A stretch of DNA of 64,000 bases from Marinomonas alcarazii (GTDB lineage Bacteria; Pseudomonadota; Gammaproteobacteria; Pseudomonadales; Marinomonadaceae): the NCBI RefSeq assembly GCF_003208215.1, contig NZ_QKLW01000001.1, positions 700,234-764,233 of the forward strand, written 5' to 3'. Positions 39,644-45,605 of the stretch are shown piece by piece. The translations under genes and the position numbers were made by a program. How positions within the stretch are numbered: the first letter of the stretch is position 1; every line of letters starts with the position of its first letter. The notes beneath the pieces are model-generated. The model ran no database searches. It was not told where the DNA came from and saw only the letters and a list, made by a program, of their open reading frames with translations.

Positions 39644-39756
39644 GGTGTCTCTGCTGGTCCCCTCGCAACGATAAACCGTTAATCTGGTCAGGTCCGGAAG
39701 GAAGCAGCCACAGCGGTGGACTTGTGTGCCGAGGTGCGGCTGGTAGAGATGCCACC
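39644..39756 (+). ncRNA. ffs: 4.5S RNA of the signal recognition particle (bacterial small SRP RNA)
   Basis: The universally conserved SRP core GGTCAGGTCCGGAAGGAAGC (39688-39707) lies in the apical loop region, and the mirrored GTGTGCCGAGG is on the 3' side. The ends GGTGTCTCT and AGAGATGCCACC pair to close a rod of about 113 bases. It binds Ffh and guides inner-membrane proteins to FtsY. Exact ends are set by the pairing and are good to a few bases. Confidence 0.96.
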
Positions 39757-39903
39757 TTAATCTCTCCAACGTTCTACATTTTCCTTTTTTACTTCAATAC
39801 TTATTTCATTCCTTACCGTTTCTACAAAACTTTTTTGATGCATTATTACGCCTTTTGTTGCTGTCACACCGACTTGAAGCTACCTTACTCCTCACTGCTG
39901 AAC

Positions 39904-40177
39904 CTAAACAATATCACTTGTAGGGCACGATAAGCGAAGCGCAATCTGCCGCACAAACCATTTTTCGTCTGACCCTGATAGATTGAACGCACCATAGAGC
40001 GTTGGTGCCAAAACCTCTGCGATGACGTTGTCATCAAGTTCACCAGCCACGATATACGTAAACTCGCCCGCGGCAGCTAGCAAGACAAGAAGAGCAGGGA
40101 TCGACTGGACAAACGCTACATGCACACCCATTCCAGAGAATAGATGCGCAAAGCGTTGGGGGAGTGGGGAAGAATGG
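39904..40177 (-). pseudogene. Unidentified coding remnant
   Basis: A minus-strand frame (from about 40167) reads PQRFAHLFSGMGVHVAFVQSI then LLVLLAAAGEFTYIVAGELDDNVIAEVLAP. It has normal codon use and higher GC than its AT-rich neighbour. The frame runs on into the 2TM gene without a plausible start, and its last residues (RQIALRLSC) are the translation of a REP-like hairpin. I read it as the remains of an older gene cut by the island. Family not recognised. Confidence 0.4.
39923..39950. repeat. REP-like hairpin
   Basis: The stretch starting GGGCACGATAAGCG and ending CGCAATCTGCC folds as an imperfect hairpin (GGCA/TGCC, GAT/ATC, GCG/CGC). It is of the class of extragenic palindromes common in gammaproteobacteria. 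Only this copy is in the window. Confidence 0.45.
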
Positions 40178-40912
40178 TTAACTAATGATTTTATAAGCTT
40201 CTTTATCTTGTTTTCCCCATACATCTTTAAATCTATCTATTAAATTGTCAAATGATATTGAAACAAAATAGCTCTTATCTTCAACTATACCATTATTTGA
40301 TACAGTGTATGTTATCTCAATTTCTTTATTGTTATTGTTTTTTATGAAATTTGCATTATCAACAGGACTTTTGAATTCACTATTTAGTAATGATTTTATT
40401 GTTAGTGATTTAGAAGTATTTGAATTAAGTGTGAAATCTTTGCTTTCAATGTTTGTTTCGCTGTCAGTAATTGATAATGGGTTCACGAGTTTTACATTTT
40501 TATTATCTGAAAATGCGTTTATTTTAAAATTTAAAAACGCTGCGCTATTGTTGGTGCGGTTATCGATGTGTAACTTTATTGTTATGTTGGCATTTCTGAA
40601 AATCAATCCTGTTCCTGATGAGAAGGTTATAGCAGAATGAATCGTATGTATTCTTATTTCTTTACTATCTTCTATGCTTTTTAAATCTTTATTTTTAATT
40701 GTCAAATCTTCGATTTTTTGGTTTTGTTCTTTCCATCTTTGATGAGCAGCATAATAAAAAGATATCAAAATGCAGGTTGTAGCAATAATTGATAATACTT
40801 TTCCGTTTGCAGGTGGAATGAAGTTGGATAGTATGATCAATAAGAAACTTATTAGTCCAAATATTGCGTTTGATTTTTCGTATATGTCTTTTATAAAGTT
40901 AATGTGTTGCAT
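40178..40912 (-). CDS. 2TM membrane protein with beta-rich cytoplasmic or periplasmic domain
   Basis: I do not recognise the family. The 244-residue protein has two membrane helices close to its N-terminus (about 17-33 and 38-57), then a charged coiled-coil (about 58-82), then a domain of about 160 residues rich in alternating beta strands and Asn/Ser/Thr (ITIKLHIDNRTNNSAAFLNFKINAF). This resembles an Ig-like or sensor sandwich. It is the last gene of an AT-rich operon, 32 bases after a RelA/SpoT-fold gene. By layout it could be a membrane effector triggered by a nucleotide, but no family match supports this. Confidence 0.65.
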   Translation of the reverse strand: MQHINFIKDIYEKSNAIFGLISFLLIILSNFIPPANGKVLSIIATTCILISFYYAAHQRWKEQNQKIEDLTIKNKDLKSIEDSKEIRIHTIHSAITFSSGTGLIFRNANITIKLHIDNRTNNSAAFLNFKINAFSDNKNVKLVNPLSITDSETNIESKDFTLNSNTSKSLTIKSLLNSEFKSPVDNANFIKNNNNKEIEITYTVSNNGIVEDKSYFVSISFDNLIDRFKDVWGKQDKEAYKIIS

Positions 40913-40944
40913 TTTGTTTTTTCTCTTGATTTTTTAAAATAGAG

Positions 40945-41925
40945 TTATTCATTTATTAGGCTTGCTCCTAGATCAGCTGCTATCTCATCAAGATCTTTTC
41001 TAGAAATTGGCCATTCCCGATCTGCATCATTTGGTTTTTTTAAAATAAGGTAAATTATAAATAAGATTGTACTTTGTCTATAGAGCGAATTTTTAGGTAG
41101 TAGGCTGGTTATGAGTTGGGCTAGGCTCTGTTTTCTTTGGAAAAGCTTTTCTATTCTTCTCATAAGCTCATCATCAATAAGGTATTCATAAGCATCCCAT
41201 ATTATAGCGGATGACTTTTCAAATGTTGGGTGTATACCTATTAGTAAAAAATATAGCGAGTCCAGTTTTTCTTTTATGTTAAACTCTTTGAACTTAGAGT
41301 TGTTCAGCTCTATTGATACCGATCTGAAGAAGTCATCAGTTGTCTCAATAAGCGCCATGCTTTTAGCTACAGTTCTGTAGACAGAAGGCTTTACTTTCTT
41401 TGTTGCTTTGTAAATTTGATCGTGCGTTAACTCAGCATGAGCATGTTGTAAAAGTGTTCTAACTTGCACTTCACATGGCGTATTGGTTGTAATAGTCACG
41501 TCTTCTAGTTGAATGTCTACCTTTGGTCTAAGTATGTAATGAACAGACTGATATCCAAAAGCAAGAGGACTCTCTTCTTTCTCTTGCTCAAAGTGTTTGC
41601 ATTCATCATAGCTCCATTGATTAGAGCTTTTGATGATATTGCAAATGTCATTAATATCCTCAAGCAGTAAGACGATAAAACGAATACCAACTTTATCTTC
41701 AATATCATGATAAGGGTCGCTATAACCCTTGTTACGATGGAACGCTTTATCAATAATTGATTTATCATCTTTTAAACGATATTTAACTGGAACCTTCAAA
41801 AAAGAATTTAGGTCCTTTCCAATATCAAAAAGCTGTGTTTGAACTTCATTCTGAATAAAGTTACCCCAAGCTTCATATATAGGCTTGTCATTTATCCATT
41901 TTTTTAAAAACTCATCTTCATTCAT
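40945..41925 (-). CDS. RelA/SpoT-domain nucleotide pyrophosphokinase
   Basis: The protein (326 residues from ATG 41925, which overlaps the upstream stop as ATGA; ATG 41967 is an alternative) has a RelA/SpoT synthetase core: the VKYRLKDDKSIIDK G-loop region (about 46-60), DIEDKVGIRFIV with the metal Asp at residue 77, FGYQSVHYILRPK, and PCEVQVRTLLQHAHAELTHD with the catalytic Glu at residue 152. No HD hydrolase, TGS or ACT domain is present, so it is a small alarmone synthetase type. The C-terminal 130 residues are helical and unfamiliar. Related proteins make (p)ppGpp, (p)ppApp or pyrophosphorylate tRNA as toxins. It sits between the NA37 and 2TM genes. Confidence 0.8.
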   Translation of the reverse strand: MNEDEFLKKWINDKPIYEAWGNFIQNEVQTQLFDIGKDLNSFLKVPVKYRLKDDKSIIDKAFHRNKGYSDPYHDIEDKVGIRFIVLLLEDINDICNIIKSSNQWSYDECKHFEQEKEESPLAFGYQSVHYILRPKVDIQLEDVTITTNTPCEVQVRTLLQHAHAELTHDQIYKATKKVKPSVYRTVAKSMALIETTDDFFRSVSIELNNSKFKEFNIKEKLDSLYFLLIGIHPTFEKSSAIIWDAYEYLIDDELMRRIEKLFQRKQSLAQLITSLLPKNSLYRQSTILFIIYLILKKPNDADREWPISRKDLDEIAADLGASLINE

Positions 41926-43019
41926 TCTTGGTTTGTTATTTTTTCTTTCACTATTATTTGAGTCCATTCTGGTATATTACCTCTTTCATCAGGTGTACCT
42001 TTAATGCTTTCAAACGATATTTTTTCTTTAAATACTTCAGGCGAAGCTGTTAGTTTTATGTTGCTATTAAAGGACAGTTTTCTTAGTTTAAGGCTTTTCT
42101 TTATGTGCTCTACATCTTTTGTGAAATTCTCTCTTGGCAACCCATTGTCTTCTAGGCTTTCAATGAGGTCTTCTCTAATGTCTTCATTTAAATAGTCATT
42201 AGAGAAGTCTACAGGACTAATTATAGGTGACGTATTGACTTTAATGTAGCTGATTAAAGCGTTTATATAATCATTTTTTTCTTCTTCATCTATTTCTAAT
42301 TCACTTATAAACTTCTTTGTTAGCTCAAAGAAAAGCTTTGTTCTTCTCGCACTTGTATCTGGGTAGGTAAATCCTAAAAATCCGTTGTAAAAATAGTAAG
42401 CAGCCGCTTTGCCTTCGGCTTGGCTTATTTGATAATCAGATACCCATACTTCCCAGCTTCTGTTTAAATCTTCGTTATCAGGCTGAAAATTTCTTTTTTG
42501 TAGAAATGCGGCTGTTTTATAAAGTCGAGCGCTGGGAGTAAGCAATACATCCTCAATGTAGTTTAATGATATTTTATTGGTATCAGGATCAACTAGTTTT
42601 TGATAAGCATTGTGTGTTTCTGCTTTTATGATTCCAAGGAACGGTGTGTCTGGAAAATTACAAGTGCCTGTAAATACAACGACGATACCGCCAGGATAAG
42701 ATGCTTTTTTTTGTGCCTTATCAAGTAGTTTTGCAATCTCAAATGAGGAATTTATAAACGCCTCATTATCTTCGTTTATTGCTCTATCGACCAACCTACT
42801 TAAGCTTGTTGCATCTTGCCTTTCTATGATCATTTCAACTGCTTTGGTGTTTTCCCCAAGTGCGTCACTAACTCGGCTCCTGAAATTTGACATGGCACTA
42901 TCGTCAAATTCGGTATATGCAGTACTTTTCGACGGAGCTTGTTGGATTTGGAGCTCTTTATTTTTTTTAAAAATTTGGTGGATGATAATCTGGTTAATCT
43001 TGGCGTTAAGAAACTGCAT
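41922..43019 (-). CDS. NA37 / NdpA (YejK)-like nucleoid-associated protein
   Basis: A 365-residue protein with the NA37 layout: N-terminal INQIIIHQIFKK, middle GGIVVVFTGTCNFPDTPFLGIIKAE, WVSDYQISQAEGKAAAYYFYNGFLGFTYPDTSARRTKLFFELT, and C-terminal KLSFNSNIKLTASPEVFKEKISFESI. E. coli YejK binds DNA in the nucleoid; here NA37 is the first gene of an operon with a RelA/SpoT enzyme and a 2TM protein. I start at 43019 because AGAGAAGATTT precedes that ATG and the family starts there. The AT-rich composition suggests transfer. The family call rests on pattern similarity. Confidence 0.68.
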   Translation of the reverse strand: MQFLNAKINQIIIHQIFKKNKELQIQQAPSKSTAYTEFDDSAMSNFRSRVSDALGENTKAVEMIIERQDATSLSRLVDRAINEDNEAFINSSFEIAKLLDKAQKKASYPGGIVVVFTGTCNFPDTPFLGIIKAETHNAYQKLVDPDTNKISLNYIEDVLLTPSARLYKTAAFLQKRNFQPDNEDLNRSWEVWVSDYQISQAEGKAAAYYFYNGFLGFTYPDTSARRTKLFFELTKKFISELEIDEEEKNDYINALISYIKVNTSPIISPVDFSNDYLNEDIREDLIESLEDNGLPRENFTKDVEHIKKSLKLRKLSFNSNIKLTASPEVFKEKISFESIKGTPDERGNIPEWTQIIVKEKITNQE

Positions 43020-43546
43020 AAATCTTCTCTGTGAGTACGCTGACAAGCTAAGAGAAGGGGAGGATTTAGTATTGCTTCACCTTCCTTGGTTGTCGCGAAA
43101 TTGTCATTGATTAAGTTGTTAATTCGATACTATGTGACCTGTCACGCTTTGTCAGCCCTTTTCTTGACGTTTTCCTTACTTTTCATGTGGTAAGTTTTGG
43201 GATCAGAAAAATTGATTGTAAACGACGCAGCTAAACCCTTTTTTATAGCGGAAAGCATCGCTGTCGTACCCGCCACCGACATCATAGCCATGATCCAAAC
43301 CATCTGAACTACCAATAACTCGCCAGAATCCAAACCAATCCCGCATGGATCGATCAAATCATCGAATGCGTTAAAAGCGCTATGCCCGTCTTTGTTGTTT
43401 TTTCGAATGTATAAAGTCTAGATCAAAAACACTTAAGTGAAATAACTGAAAAAAATGGATGTTTTCAGATATTTCATTTATGTTTGGGGTTACTGAGGCT
43501 AGCTTTTAGTTTGCCTTGATAGTGTTAAGGGTGAGAGGTTACTCGA
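43020..43546. other. Intergenic region with degraded repeat copy A
   Basis: The leftward island operon promoter must lie at the left end. The middle holds direct repeat copy A. The right end carries the leader of the HTH/PIN pair. No intact gene is supported: an antisense ORF over copy A is a shadow. Confidence 0.5.
43194..43380 (+). repeat. Direct repeat copy A (degraded), left of the HTH/PIN pair
   Basis: It matches 44629-44820 over about 180 bases, with identical blocks such as AAAAATTGATTGTAAACG and CGTACCCGCCACCGACATCA. Small deletions and a TGA break the frame that is open in copy B, so A is the decayed copy. Confidence 0.85.
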
Positions 43547-44011
43547 ATGATGAAAACCAATTTAAATGTTGAGCCGGATACCAGTGCAATAATCAAAGCG
43601 CAGCAGTACCTGAAGCTGCATCAAGCGGATCTTGATAAGTTAAAAATTGATGTGTTACTTAAAAATGGTCAAAAAGCTGAATTTGAATTGCCCAAATTGA
43701 CGCTTGATGCACTTGTTCAAGTGTTAGGTCAATTGGCTAAGGATGGTGATGATCAGTTGTTTGAACAGCAGGTTGACTTGGAGAAAATGGTTAGTCCTGC
43801 TGTGGCTGCTAAATTTCTTGGAATGTCACGACCAAAAGTAACAGGTTATATTTTGGCTGGGCAAATTCCATCTATGAAGGTAGGCACTCATCATCGTGTA
43901 AAAATGGCAGATGTCTTGTTATTTAAGGAGAAGCTTTCTAGTGCTAAGGGGTCAAGAGAAGAGACTCTTAGTTTAATTGCCAACTTTGAGCAAGAGTCAG
44001 ATTCTATGTAA
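43547..44011 (+). CDS. HTH (excisionase/MerR-type) antitoxin of a PIN toxin pair
   Basis: A 154-residue protein with an N-terminal part of unknown fold and a helix-turn-helix at about 85-140 (VSPAVAAKFLGMSRPKVTGYILAGQIPSMKVGTHHRVKMADVLLFKEKL), which is the excisionase/SinI-like DNA-binding module found in HTH antitoxins of the Bro/Xre-PIN type. It probably neutralises the PIN protein and represses its own promoter. The stop is 9 bases before the PIN start. AGAGG precedes the first two ATG codons. Confidence 0.8.
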   Translation: MMKTNLNVEPDTSAIIKAQQYLKLHQADLDKLKIDVLLKNGQKAEFELPKLTLDALVQVLGQLAKDGDDQLFEQQVDLEKMVSPAVAAKFLGMSRPKVTGYILAGQIPSMKVGTHHRVKMADVLLFKEKLSSAKGSREETLSLIANFEQESDSM

Positions 44012-44020
44012 GGGGTTGTT

Positions 44021-44575
44021 ATGGATGATAAAATTTTGCTGGATGCAAATACCCTATATTCACAACCATTGAGGATGATGCTGCTTAATTTGATGCAGTT
44101 AGATGGGTGTACTACTCAGTTTTTTTGGACTGATAAGATAGATGCAGAATGGTCTAATGCTTTAATTCGTAGGCATCCCGAAAGCAAAGACGTCATTATT
44201 AAGCAGGTAAATTCGATTAAGGCATCCTTTTTCGATCGCTATGTTTTAGGTTACGAGCCATTAATAAATCAGCTTGACCTTCCTGATCCAGATGATCGTC
44301 ATGTTCTTGCTGCTGCAGTAAAAACGGGTTGTAATATTATTGCGACAGATAACATTAAAGACTTTCCGGCAAAATTATTGGCTGAGTATGGTATCAGAGC
44401 GATGACAAGAGACGAGTTGATGTGTTTCTTGTTCACTAATGAAAAAGATAGTGTCATGAAAGCTTTAGATAATTTTGCACGTGTACATAAAGACCCGGAG
44501 CTTACAGTCGAAGACTTGCTAATAAAGCTTGATCGTTCAGTGCCAAGTTTTACACACTTAGTAAGAGAGTCCTGA
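44021..44575 (+). CDS. PIN-domain ribonuclease toxin
   Basis: A 184-residue protein whose PIN acidic residues are visible: Asp8 (ILLDANTLY), Glu43 (DAEWSNAL), Asp91/92 (PDPDDRHVLAAAV), Asp110 and Asp114 (ATDNIKDFP). PIN toxins cut tRNA or mRNA. The C-terminal extension (about 145-184) is specific to the longer HTH-linked PIN group. It is the second gene of the pair and is followed by a strong terminator. AGGGGTTGTT lies before ATG. Confidence 0.87.
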   Translation: MDDKILLDANTLYSQPLRMMLLNLMQLDGCTTQFFWTDKIDAEWSNALIRRHPESKDVIIKQVNSIKASFFDRYVLGYEPLINQLDLPDPDDRHVLAAAVKTGCNIIATDNIKDFPAKLLAEYGIRAMTRDELMCFLFTNEKDSVMKALDNFARVHKDPELTVEDLLIKLDRSVPSFTHLVRES

Positions 44576-44628: not shown

Positions 44629-44851
44629 TTTGGGGGCAGATGAAAAATTGATTGTAAACGACGCAGCTAAACCCTTTTTTATAGCGGAAAGCATCGCTGT
44701 CGTACCCGCCACCGACATCACGGCCATGAGCCAAACTATCCGAAACTACCAGCAACAAGTCGCCAGAATCCAAACCAACTCCGCATGGGTCGACCAAACC
44801 ATCGAACGCGTCAAAAACGCCACAGGCCGACACTTCGGAGAGGGTGGTTGA
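44629..44851 (+). repeat. Direct repeat copy B, with an open coding frame
   Basis: This copy keeps one open frame (ADEKLIVNDAAKPFFIAESIAVVPAT ... QQQVARIQTNSAWVDQTIERVKNATGRHF) ending at a TGA at 44849-44851. It looks like the C-terminal end of a real protein (balanced codon use, GC near 50 percent), but no start or upstream part exists: the PIN terminator lies 3 bases upstream. Family not recognised. Confidence 0.7.
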
Positions 44852-44929: not shown

Positions 44930-45043
44930 ATCCGGCTACCGTAAAAGGTCGAGGGCAACCCGGTAAAGGCTTTCTGAATATCGAGCATAGGCTCAAAGTT
45001 TGAATCAATGCTCGACGGAACCCGCTTTTAGGCGGGTTTTGTT
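44930..45043 (+). ncRNA. Candidate structured RNA with intrinsic terminator
   Basis: Between copy B and a leftward gene there are three stacked hairpins: TACCG/CGGTA enclosing GGG-CAA-CCC (44938-44965), TCGAGCAT/ATGCTCGA (44981-44988 with 45008-45015, perfect), and an intrinsic terminator AACCCGC/GCGGGTT with TTTTG (45019-45040). No protein gene precedes the terminator closely. It may be a small RNA or the end of a lost gene. Confidence 0.35.
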
Positions 45044-45605
45044 ATTTATGGGGTTTGGGAAGCGGCTTTCCTAATTTAAGATTCTTCGCAATGTTGAAAA
45101 AATTCACCTTATCCAGCTTGGGCATCACGTCTTCAGGGTAAGCACTGGTAATATGTATCCTCATTAACTTTTTCTCTCGGTACATCTTAAAGGGCACGAA
45201 ATAGATGATTTGCCCTTTTTCCTCTGTGTTGATGGTGACAGAGGCGTAGCTTCCATAACCTGCGTGTCCTATGCGGGTTTTCTTGTCTCCAAATGCATCA
45301 ACAATTTGTCTCAAATACTTTTTTGATAATTCATATCGAACAAAGCAAAACGGCCTGCTTTCTTTTAGGGTGTGGTACATCAGATCTGCTTTTTCCGCTT
45401 CTGTTTGATGAGGATAGTCTTTTGCGAAGCAGTGGAACGAGTAGGAAACCATAAAAGTGTAGGTTTCTTTTTTCCCGTTTATGATATCGGAGTAAGTCGC
45501 TTCATGGGCATCAAGGTGACTAAGATCGTATGTTTGACCGTTTGAATCGATAAATGGCCTCCACTTATCTACCTCGTCAATTTTTCTCCGCATTCCTCGT
45601 CCCAA
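45042..45605 (-). CDS. Hypothetical protein
   Basis: No family recognised. The 187-residue soluble protein has a YTFMVSYSFHCFAKDYP segment, a basic-aromatic FCFVRYELSKKYLRQIV helix and strands GYGSYASVTIN and GQIIYFVPFKMY, so it is probably alpha/beta. The start is doubtful: TTG 45605 and ATG 45593 lack good ribosome binding sites, and the frame stays open upstream to 45643 (KGILLGFTLEKLGRGMRR), which looks coding. A frameshift or lost start is possible. Its stop overlaps the terminator T run at 45040. Confidence 0.5.
   Translation of the reverse strand: MGRGMRRKIDEVDKWRPFIDSNGQTYDLSHLDAHEATYSDIINGKKETYTFMVSYSFHCFAKDYPHQTEAEKADLMYHTLKESRPFCFVRYELSKKYLRQIVDAFGDKKTRIGHAGYGSYASVTINTEEKGQIIYFVPFKMYREKKLMRIHITSAYPEDVMPKLDKVNFFNIAKNLKLGKPLPKPHK

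Follow-up and report, generated by a model that had tools for sequence, protein, structure and literature searches.

Which genes of a three-gene operon beside the 4.5S RNA gene ffs of Marinomonas alcarazii belong together, and what might they do? The operon lies in a 64,000-nucleotide stretch (positions 700,234 to 764,233 of contig NZ_QKLW01000001.1, assembly GCF_003208215.1) that we call the window, and encodes in order an NA37-like protein (P0001), a small alarmone synthetase (SAS) of the RelA/SpoT type (P0002) and a protein with two transmembrane segments (2TM), a coiled coil and a beta-rich part (P0003). A first-pass annotation, made from the sequence alone, proposed for these a trio in which the NA37 protein may sense DNA, a nucleotide made by the synthetase is the signal and the 2TM protein is the effector. 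We find that NA37 and SAS form a genuine module, both widespread and mobile, and that the trio of the window is one local form of a looser arrangement, that of an NA37-SAS pair with an exchangeable 2TM gene. The three roles stand as proposals and are taken up below.

The NA37 protein and its synthetase

The three open reading frames (ORFs) of the operon are real and intact. ORFs, Rfam and protein profiles agree with the layout first described, a leftward operon with an ATGA overlap between the first two genes and a 32-base gap from the SAS stop to the 2TM gene start, having ffs on one side and a pair of HTH_17 and PIN genes on the other. For the SAS gene the likely start is at 41925, since M15 of the longer, 340-residue form is conserved in every row of a 24-sequence alignment, many of which begin with it, and it is this start that gives the overlap with the NA37 gene (41922-41925).

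P0001 matches the Pfam family NA37 (PF04245) at 52 bits against a cut-off of 24.6, residues 12-326 aligning with positions 1-296 of the 325 in the profile, and phrog_1974 at 136 bits; a PDB sequence search returned nothing for it. Nucleoid association and altered topoisomerase activity are reported for the pneumococcal NA37 protein StaR and, as cited there, for YejK of E. coli (PMC10053502). P0001 matches the same Pfam family as these proteins along most of the profile, but unlike them it is an accessory paralogue tied to an SAS, and a distinct NA37 gene elsewhere in the genome scores better (230.7 bits).

P0002 is placed among the SASs by a RelA_SpoT match of 61.9 bits (cut-off 27), by its active-site motifs and by the finding of no hydrolase domain, and no HD, TGS or ACT family, at E<=1 in the family profile search, as the first-pass annotation had it. 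Ten motif residues, R64, K66, K74, D91, R96, S141, H143, E166, Q168 and R170, which we take to be catalytic or binding residues, are invariant in all 121 sequences of the comparison (the 119 distinct loci described below, minus three with proteins outside 300-400 residues, plus the window and L151-L154). They include the glutamate picked out earlier, the Glu152 of that account being Glu166 of the 340-residue form. The predicted fold is nearest to that of RelP/RelQ, for which the structures compared (PDB 6ewz, 5dec, 6fgk) are without the additional helical C-terminal domain modelled for the window SAS; this part, residues about 225-340, is all-helical, well predicted and outside the reach of the structural matches. 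CapRel and FaRel2 are SAS toxins, CapRel being a prophage-borne phage sensor (PMC9712102, PMC11559606). With CapRel the alignment runs from model residue 13 to residue 213, so that it stops short of the CapRel sensor domain and barely probes residues 225-340.

A search for relatives of the SAS gave 1262 proteins at E<=0.001, and among the best 120, which were listed, identity is 49-57% except for the window and three close relatives. We fetched 138 loci selected by SAS, comprising the best 80 of 153 confirmed genome relatives and 58 relatives in a viral contig collection, with genes called as longest ORFs. The co-occurrence expected in the first-pass annotation holds for the pair, often on mobile DNA, and in a general way for 2TM company, but does not extend to the exact trio. 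An NA37 homologue lies upstream of the SAS in 133 of the 138 loci, a count that applies to the nearer SAS relatives, and is no more than 100 bases away in 131; the commonest junctions are a 4-base overlap (71 loci) and a 1-base overlap (23 loci). After near-copies were merged at 95% there remained 119 distinct loci, and the NA37 gene precedes the SAS gene in 114 of these, a tie that sets this type of SAS apart from RelP/RelQ. The five loci lacking NA37 before the SAS are three in which the contig begins there (L059, L083, L141) and two with distant SAS genes (L142, L143). In L044 and L140, which are among the 133, the SAS ORF is fragmented and the gap larger, and in some loci the NA37 ORF is truncated at a contig edge or has less than the usual length.

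Because the 138 loci were selected by SAS, the pair was also sought in an evenly drawn set of 369 genomes from the class. Three of them, the window's own included, have a match to the NA37 subfamily profile, the SAS profile exceeds 400 bits in the same three, and the two genes are adjacent in all three (L194 and L195 being the others); seven weaker SAS matches, under 120 bits, have no adjoining NA37 gene. The two proteins also vary together, their pairwise distances correlating at 0.926 over the 108 loci with both proteins of usable length (permuted maximum 0.121), a figure to which shared descent contributes. The distribution is patchy, with any SAS match in only 5 of 143 related genomes, three of them of the same genus, again including the window's own. 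A DNA search with the window operon reached 3 of 5426 E. coli genomes, none with more than 80% of the operon covered, and two E. coli versions of the module are present in 2 and 1 of the 5426 respectively.

Membrane protein genes beside the pair

With regard to the third gene, the conserved trio was not borne out. P0003 matches no family over its cut-off in the profile libraries and nothing in PADLOC at E<=1. One homologue was found in the protein database, P0123, which is 86% identical; searching the database again with a profile of the two sequences added nothing, the ORFs of the 138 loci gave no match at E<=10, and in the 143 related genomes there is, besides P0003 itself, one marginal match of 44 residues. 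For both P0123 and P0005, an SAS relative with 91% identity, the longest contig is 6149 bases, and from this shared size we infer one contig carrying the same trio. The exact trio is thus limited to close relatives and the window 2TM gene is nearly an orphan.

A structure model of P0003 from two sequences has a predicted local distance difference test (pLDDT) score of 44.7, with a helix-helix-strands secondary structure, and because of that score no fold search was made. A PDB sequence search gave two matches at chance level. No profile of Cap15-type 2TM-beta effectors, which have a membrane-anchored beta-barrel, came up for P0003 at E<=1, and the model is too poor to use for that comparison. 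We also considered P0003 as a distant SLATT protein and rejected this, as there is no SLATT or DUF4231 match at E<=1 and BLASTP to a SLATT protein of the same genus gives E 0.12 over 28 residues. P0003 thus shows no detectable relationship to the SLATT effectors, and its beta-rich part sets it apart from them.

The test set for the earlier idea, that the three genes should recur together outside very close relatives, goes against the exact trio; it is a different 2TM family, SLATT, that recurs with the SAS. A SLATT-like gene adjoins the pair in 17 of the 119 distinct loci, 16 times upstream and once downstream (L113), the assignments resting on profiles built from those and similar genes themselves and transmembrane segments being called by hydropathy scripts. 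The upstream gene of L082 is split into two short ORFs and the downstream one of L113 reaches the contig end. Of seven 2TM genes scanned, two exceed the SLATT/DUF4231 cut-off of 24.7, in L093 (28.1 bits) and L152 (27.4 bits), and those of L036, L084, L135, L151 and L174 match under the cut-offs. In annotated E. coli regions and on a Klebsiella plasmid (L151-L153) a SLATT/DUF4231 gene lies directly before the NA37 gene; on an Ochrobactrum plasmid no SLATT/DUF4231 gene is annotated next to the pair. A third arrangement, in addition to upstream and downstream, is seen in a genome of the same genus (G009, locus L174), where the SLATT gene is convergent to the SAS gene and 15 bases from it; its product is 52% identical over 132 residues to that of the Klebsiella plasmid. 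As 17 in 119 is the full count of recognised SLATT neighbours, the pair is usually without a recognisable 2TM gene.

On a tree of the 121 SAS sequences, the loci with upstream SLATT fall into two distinct groups, one with 16 rows and one with 3, L113 lies apart from them, and the window and L099 are elsewhere, L099 having an unclassified 191-residue 2TM protein downstream of the pair that may be a chance neighbour. The tree requires 6 changes of 2TM state, being a quick tree with 43 of 118 inner branches weak. Repeated recruitment would account for this, and there may instead have been one early gain of a 2TM gene with later losses.

Two further neighbours may be mentioned. L142, with its distant SAS and no NA37, has an unclassified 2TM gene 84 bases upstream that may be there by chance. 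In L088 the gene that lies 15 bases before the NA37-SAS pair (250-1311) encodes a 353-residue protein combining an Mrr restriction domain with two hydrophobic stretches.

Mobility and possible function

The pair occurs in many bacteria and in predicted prophages. In addition to the viral contigs, it is present on two plasmids (Klebsiella, Ochrobactrum), and has integrase and tRNA-Thr neighbours in E. coli. In the window it occupies a slot between two remnants, element A, resembling the 3' end of a tyrosine-integrase gene, and element B, resembling that of a KilA-N gene, of which there is a second copy as a direct repeat. In L173 the A copy is within the 3' part of a Phage_integrase ORF and the B copy at the 3' end of a KilA-N-domain ORF. 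In genomes of the same genus A and B enclose differing cargo, some slots being beside ffs and others elsewhere: a Septu-like protein matching PtuA and PtuB (L179, not beside ffs), a HEPN-like protein (L177, also not beside ffs) and, in L178 next to ffs, proteins of no known family. Two genomes, G009 and G046, have diverged copies of the pair flanked by these edges, the slot of G009 being some 34 kb distant from ffs. In G011 the ffs region joins sequence near B with about 11 bases between, giving an empty site for window positions 39952-43174. Another genome of the genus has TnsB-, TniQ- and Cas8f/Cas5f-like genes directly after ffs (L183:3420-12361), forming a type I-F CRISPR-associated transposon.

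In having the NA37 gene first and coupled to the SAS gene, the pair follows an order that many antitoxin-toxin or sensor-effector pairs share. We think it probable, if by a modest measure, that this is a mobile conflict module with a coupled NA37-SAS core acting in growth arrest or defence and an optional membrane part. What is shown of this is the conservation of the pair, the intactness of the active-site motifs, the mobility and the recurrence of 2TM neighbours. The NA37 protein would hold back, and probably trigger, its dedicated SAS; the freed SAS would pyrophosphorylate a nucleotide, most likely GDP/GTP or ATP and less likely the CCA end of tRNA; growth would then stop through the alarmone or through ATP/GTP depletion, and an invading phage or element would fail. 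The 2TM gene would be an optional addition, acquired on several occasions (as SLATT in relatives, as the 2TM-beta protein here), that provides a membrane output or anchor. Since proteins of the NA37 family are found with the nucleoid and change the activity of topoisomerases, P0001 is a candidate reader of the state of DNA. Defence is the likeliest purpose, judged from the setting, and unproven. With regard to precedents, the DefensePredictor study of 2026 (PMC13092281) includes a system that has a YejK nucleoid-associated domain and gave E. coli protection against phage; that system shares a YejK-type domain with the window module, and its partner is not named in the text of that paper that was examined.

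Several observations weigh against the conflict module as just described. The distance correlation of the NA37 and SAS proteins can be inflated by shared descent. In PADLOC the SAS matches one model, the candidate PDC-S33 (residues 36-178, 42 bits), and of 50,697 phage records 4 match the SAS, none over more than 80% of it. Of ten slot-cargo proteins of the genus that were scanned, six match no defence model, or give a transposase or weak match only. PADLOC defence models were matched both among the 133 direct neighbours of the pair and among 112 genes more than 4.5 kb away (25 of 179 and 25 of 187 families respectively among the matches listed), and as both sets match and the total of matching members is not given, no defence enrichment beside the pair is shown. 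The majority of loci have no recognised 2TM gene, and in L006, the nearest fetched relative, as in G046, an integron-cassette protein and not a 2TM gene follows the SAS. Finally, we found no published functional test of the pair. In titles and the beginnings of abstracts of the open literature there was no description of an NA37-SAS pair, an absence limited to that search.

If instead the pair is a toxin-antitoxin system of the toxic SAS (toxSAS) type, the SAS would modify the CCA end of tRNA, the NA37 protein would be a direct antitoxin and the 2TM gene an unrelated passenger. We regard this as possible though unlikely. Structure and profile place the SAS closer to the GTP-using RelP/RelQ than to CapRel or FaRel, and NA37 proteins are larger than usual antitoxins, which we count against it. 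The frequency of SLATT genes beside the pair, 17 in 119 distinct loci, also counts against it; the yardstick is 19 matches to the DUF4231 profile in 339 whole genomes of the class, an undercount because several pair-linked SLATT genes score under the cut-off of that profile. The partner of the window SAS is an NA37 protein, and the word "nucleoid" is not found in the toxSAS papers PMC11782079, PMC12691689 and PMC8189683.

The model of the first-pass annotation is that of a nucleotide second messenger, with a diffusible alarmone from the SAS opening a 2TM pore as the nucleotides of the cyclic-oligonucleotide-based anti-phage signalling system (CBASS) open membrane effectors. It draws on the prediction that SLATT is a nucleotide-responsive pore (PMC7159879) and on SLATT adjoining the pair in all three arrangements, and we are doubtful of it. 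Of the 119 distinct loci, 102 lack a recognised SLATT gene next to the pair, and in these such a pore could be the output only if its gene were located elsewhere. In addition, the 2TM protein of the window has no match at E<=1 to SLATT or to any PADLOC model. A related proposal is an alarmone immunity parallel to CBASS, in which the NA37 protein would read the state of DNA or topoisomerase during infection and license the SAS, and the alarmone would arrest growth and, where there is a 2TM partner, gate an interchangeable effector in the membrane, either SLATT or, in the window, the 2TM-beta protein; it has to be rated as rather unlikely. The cGAS/DncV-like (SMODS) nucleotidyltransferase by which CBASS is recognised was not found here.

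The least probable reading is that of a regulator of mobile elements, in which NA37 acts on host silencing or topology and the SAS tunes growth for maintenance or transfer of the element, for although the NdpA-type nucleoid protein NdpA2 raises TprA-driven transfer of the integrative and conjugative element PAPI-1 (PMC8565334) and the pair has copies in viral-collection contigs, plasmids and islands, these elements are unlike each other and the slot edges in the window are mere integrase-like and KilA-N-like remnants, so that the pair resembles cargo and not the control region of an element.

Alarmone synthetases are known both for regulating stress responses and for acting as toxins. Should the conflict module be real, a widespread mobile synthetase tied to NA37 and repeatedly accompanied by 2TM proteins, of a kind predicted to respond to nucleotide signals, would bring DNA surveillance, alarmones and membrane effectors together in a single system. 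The pair also supplies a natural partner for the NA37 family, few of whose members have been investigated.

Features of the window

Features of the operon and of the slot in which it lies (window coordinates)
Feature	Position	Strand	Remarks
ffs, 4.5S RNA	39652..39748	plus	host gene adjoining the slot; Rfam RF00169, 74.2 bits
Element A	39987..40178	plus	remnant resembling 3' end of tyrosine-integrase gene; left slot edge
P0003, 2TM + coiled-coil + beta-rich protein	40178..40912	minus	244 residues; operon gene 3
P0002, small RelA/SpoT-type synthetase (SAS)	40945..41925	minus	326 residues from likely start; operon gene 2
SAS from alternative upstream start	40945-41967	minus	340 residues
P0001, NA37-like protein	41922..43019	minus	365 residues; operon gene 1
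Conserved upstream region	43020..43179	minus	the 160-180 bases before NA37; identity with two other same-genus copies 89% and 92%
Promoter-like CTGACA-17-TAGTAT	43155-43127	minus	spacer holds palindrome GTGAC-AG-GTCAC, 43134-43145
Element B	43206..43380	plus	remnant resembling 3' end of KilA-N gene; right slot edge; second copy 44642-44820

The region upstream of the operon is conserved well beyond the genes, as alignments of the coding part plus leader with the same-genus copies give 65-68% identity, far below that of the leader. Promoter-like sites are not above chance in number, and a structured RNA upstream of the operon was considered and rejected (z 0.12).

The description of the operon as an AT-rich island is right for the operon, where GC content in 600-base windows is 27-39%, and for the ffs side, where it changes sharply to 44-48%. 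It needs amending on the other side, where the HTH_17 and PIN genes are likewise low (38-39%), with 42-48% further out, so that the low GC has one sharp boundary only.

These HTH_17 and PIN proteins (43547-44575) are encoded between both copies of element B and are likely a toxin-antitoxin pair; the best NCBIfam match of the PIN protein is the RSP_2648 family, under its cut-off. In L178 the slot is followed by two ORFs whose first residues are near-identical to those of the HTH_17 and PIN genes. A short repeat at 39885-39952 is found in many genomes of the genus, and part of it matches at 13 places in G044. The protein encoded at 45042-45605 scores 181 bits with the PRK09717 (YjaZ) model, below the cut-off of 324.

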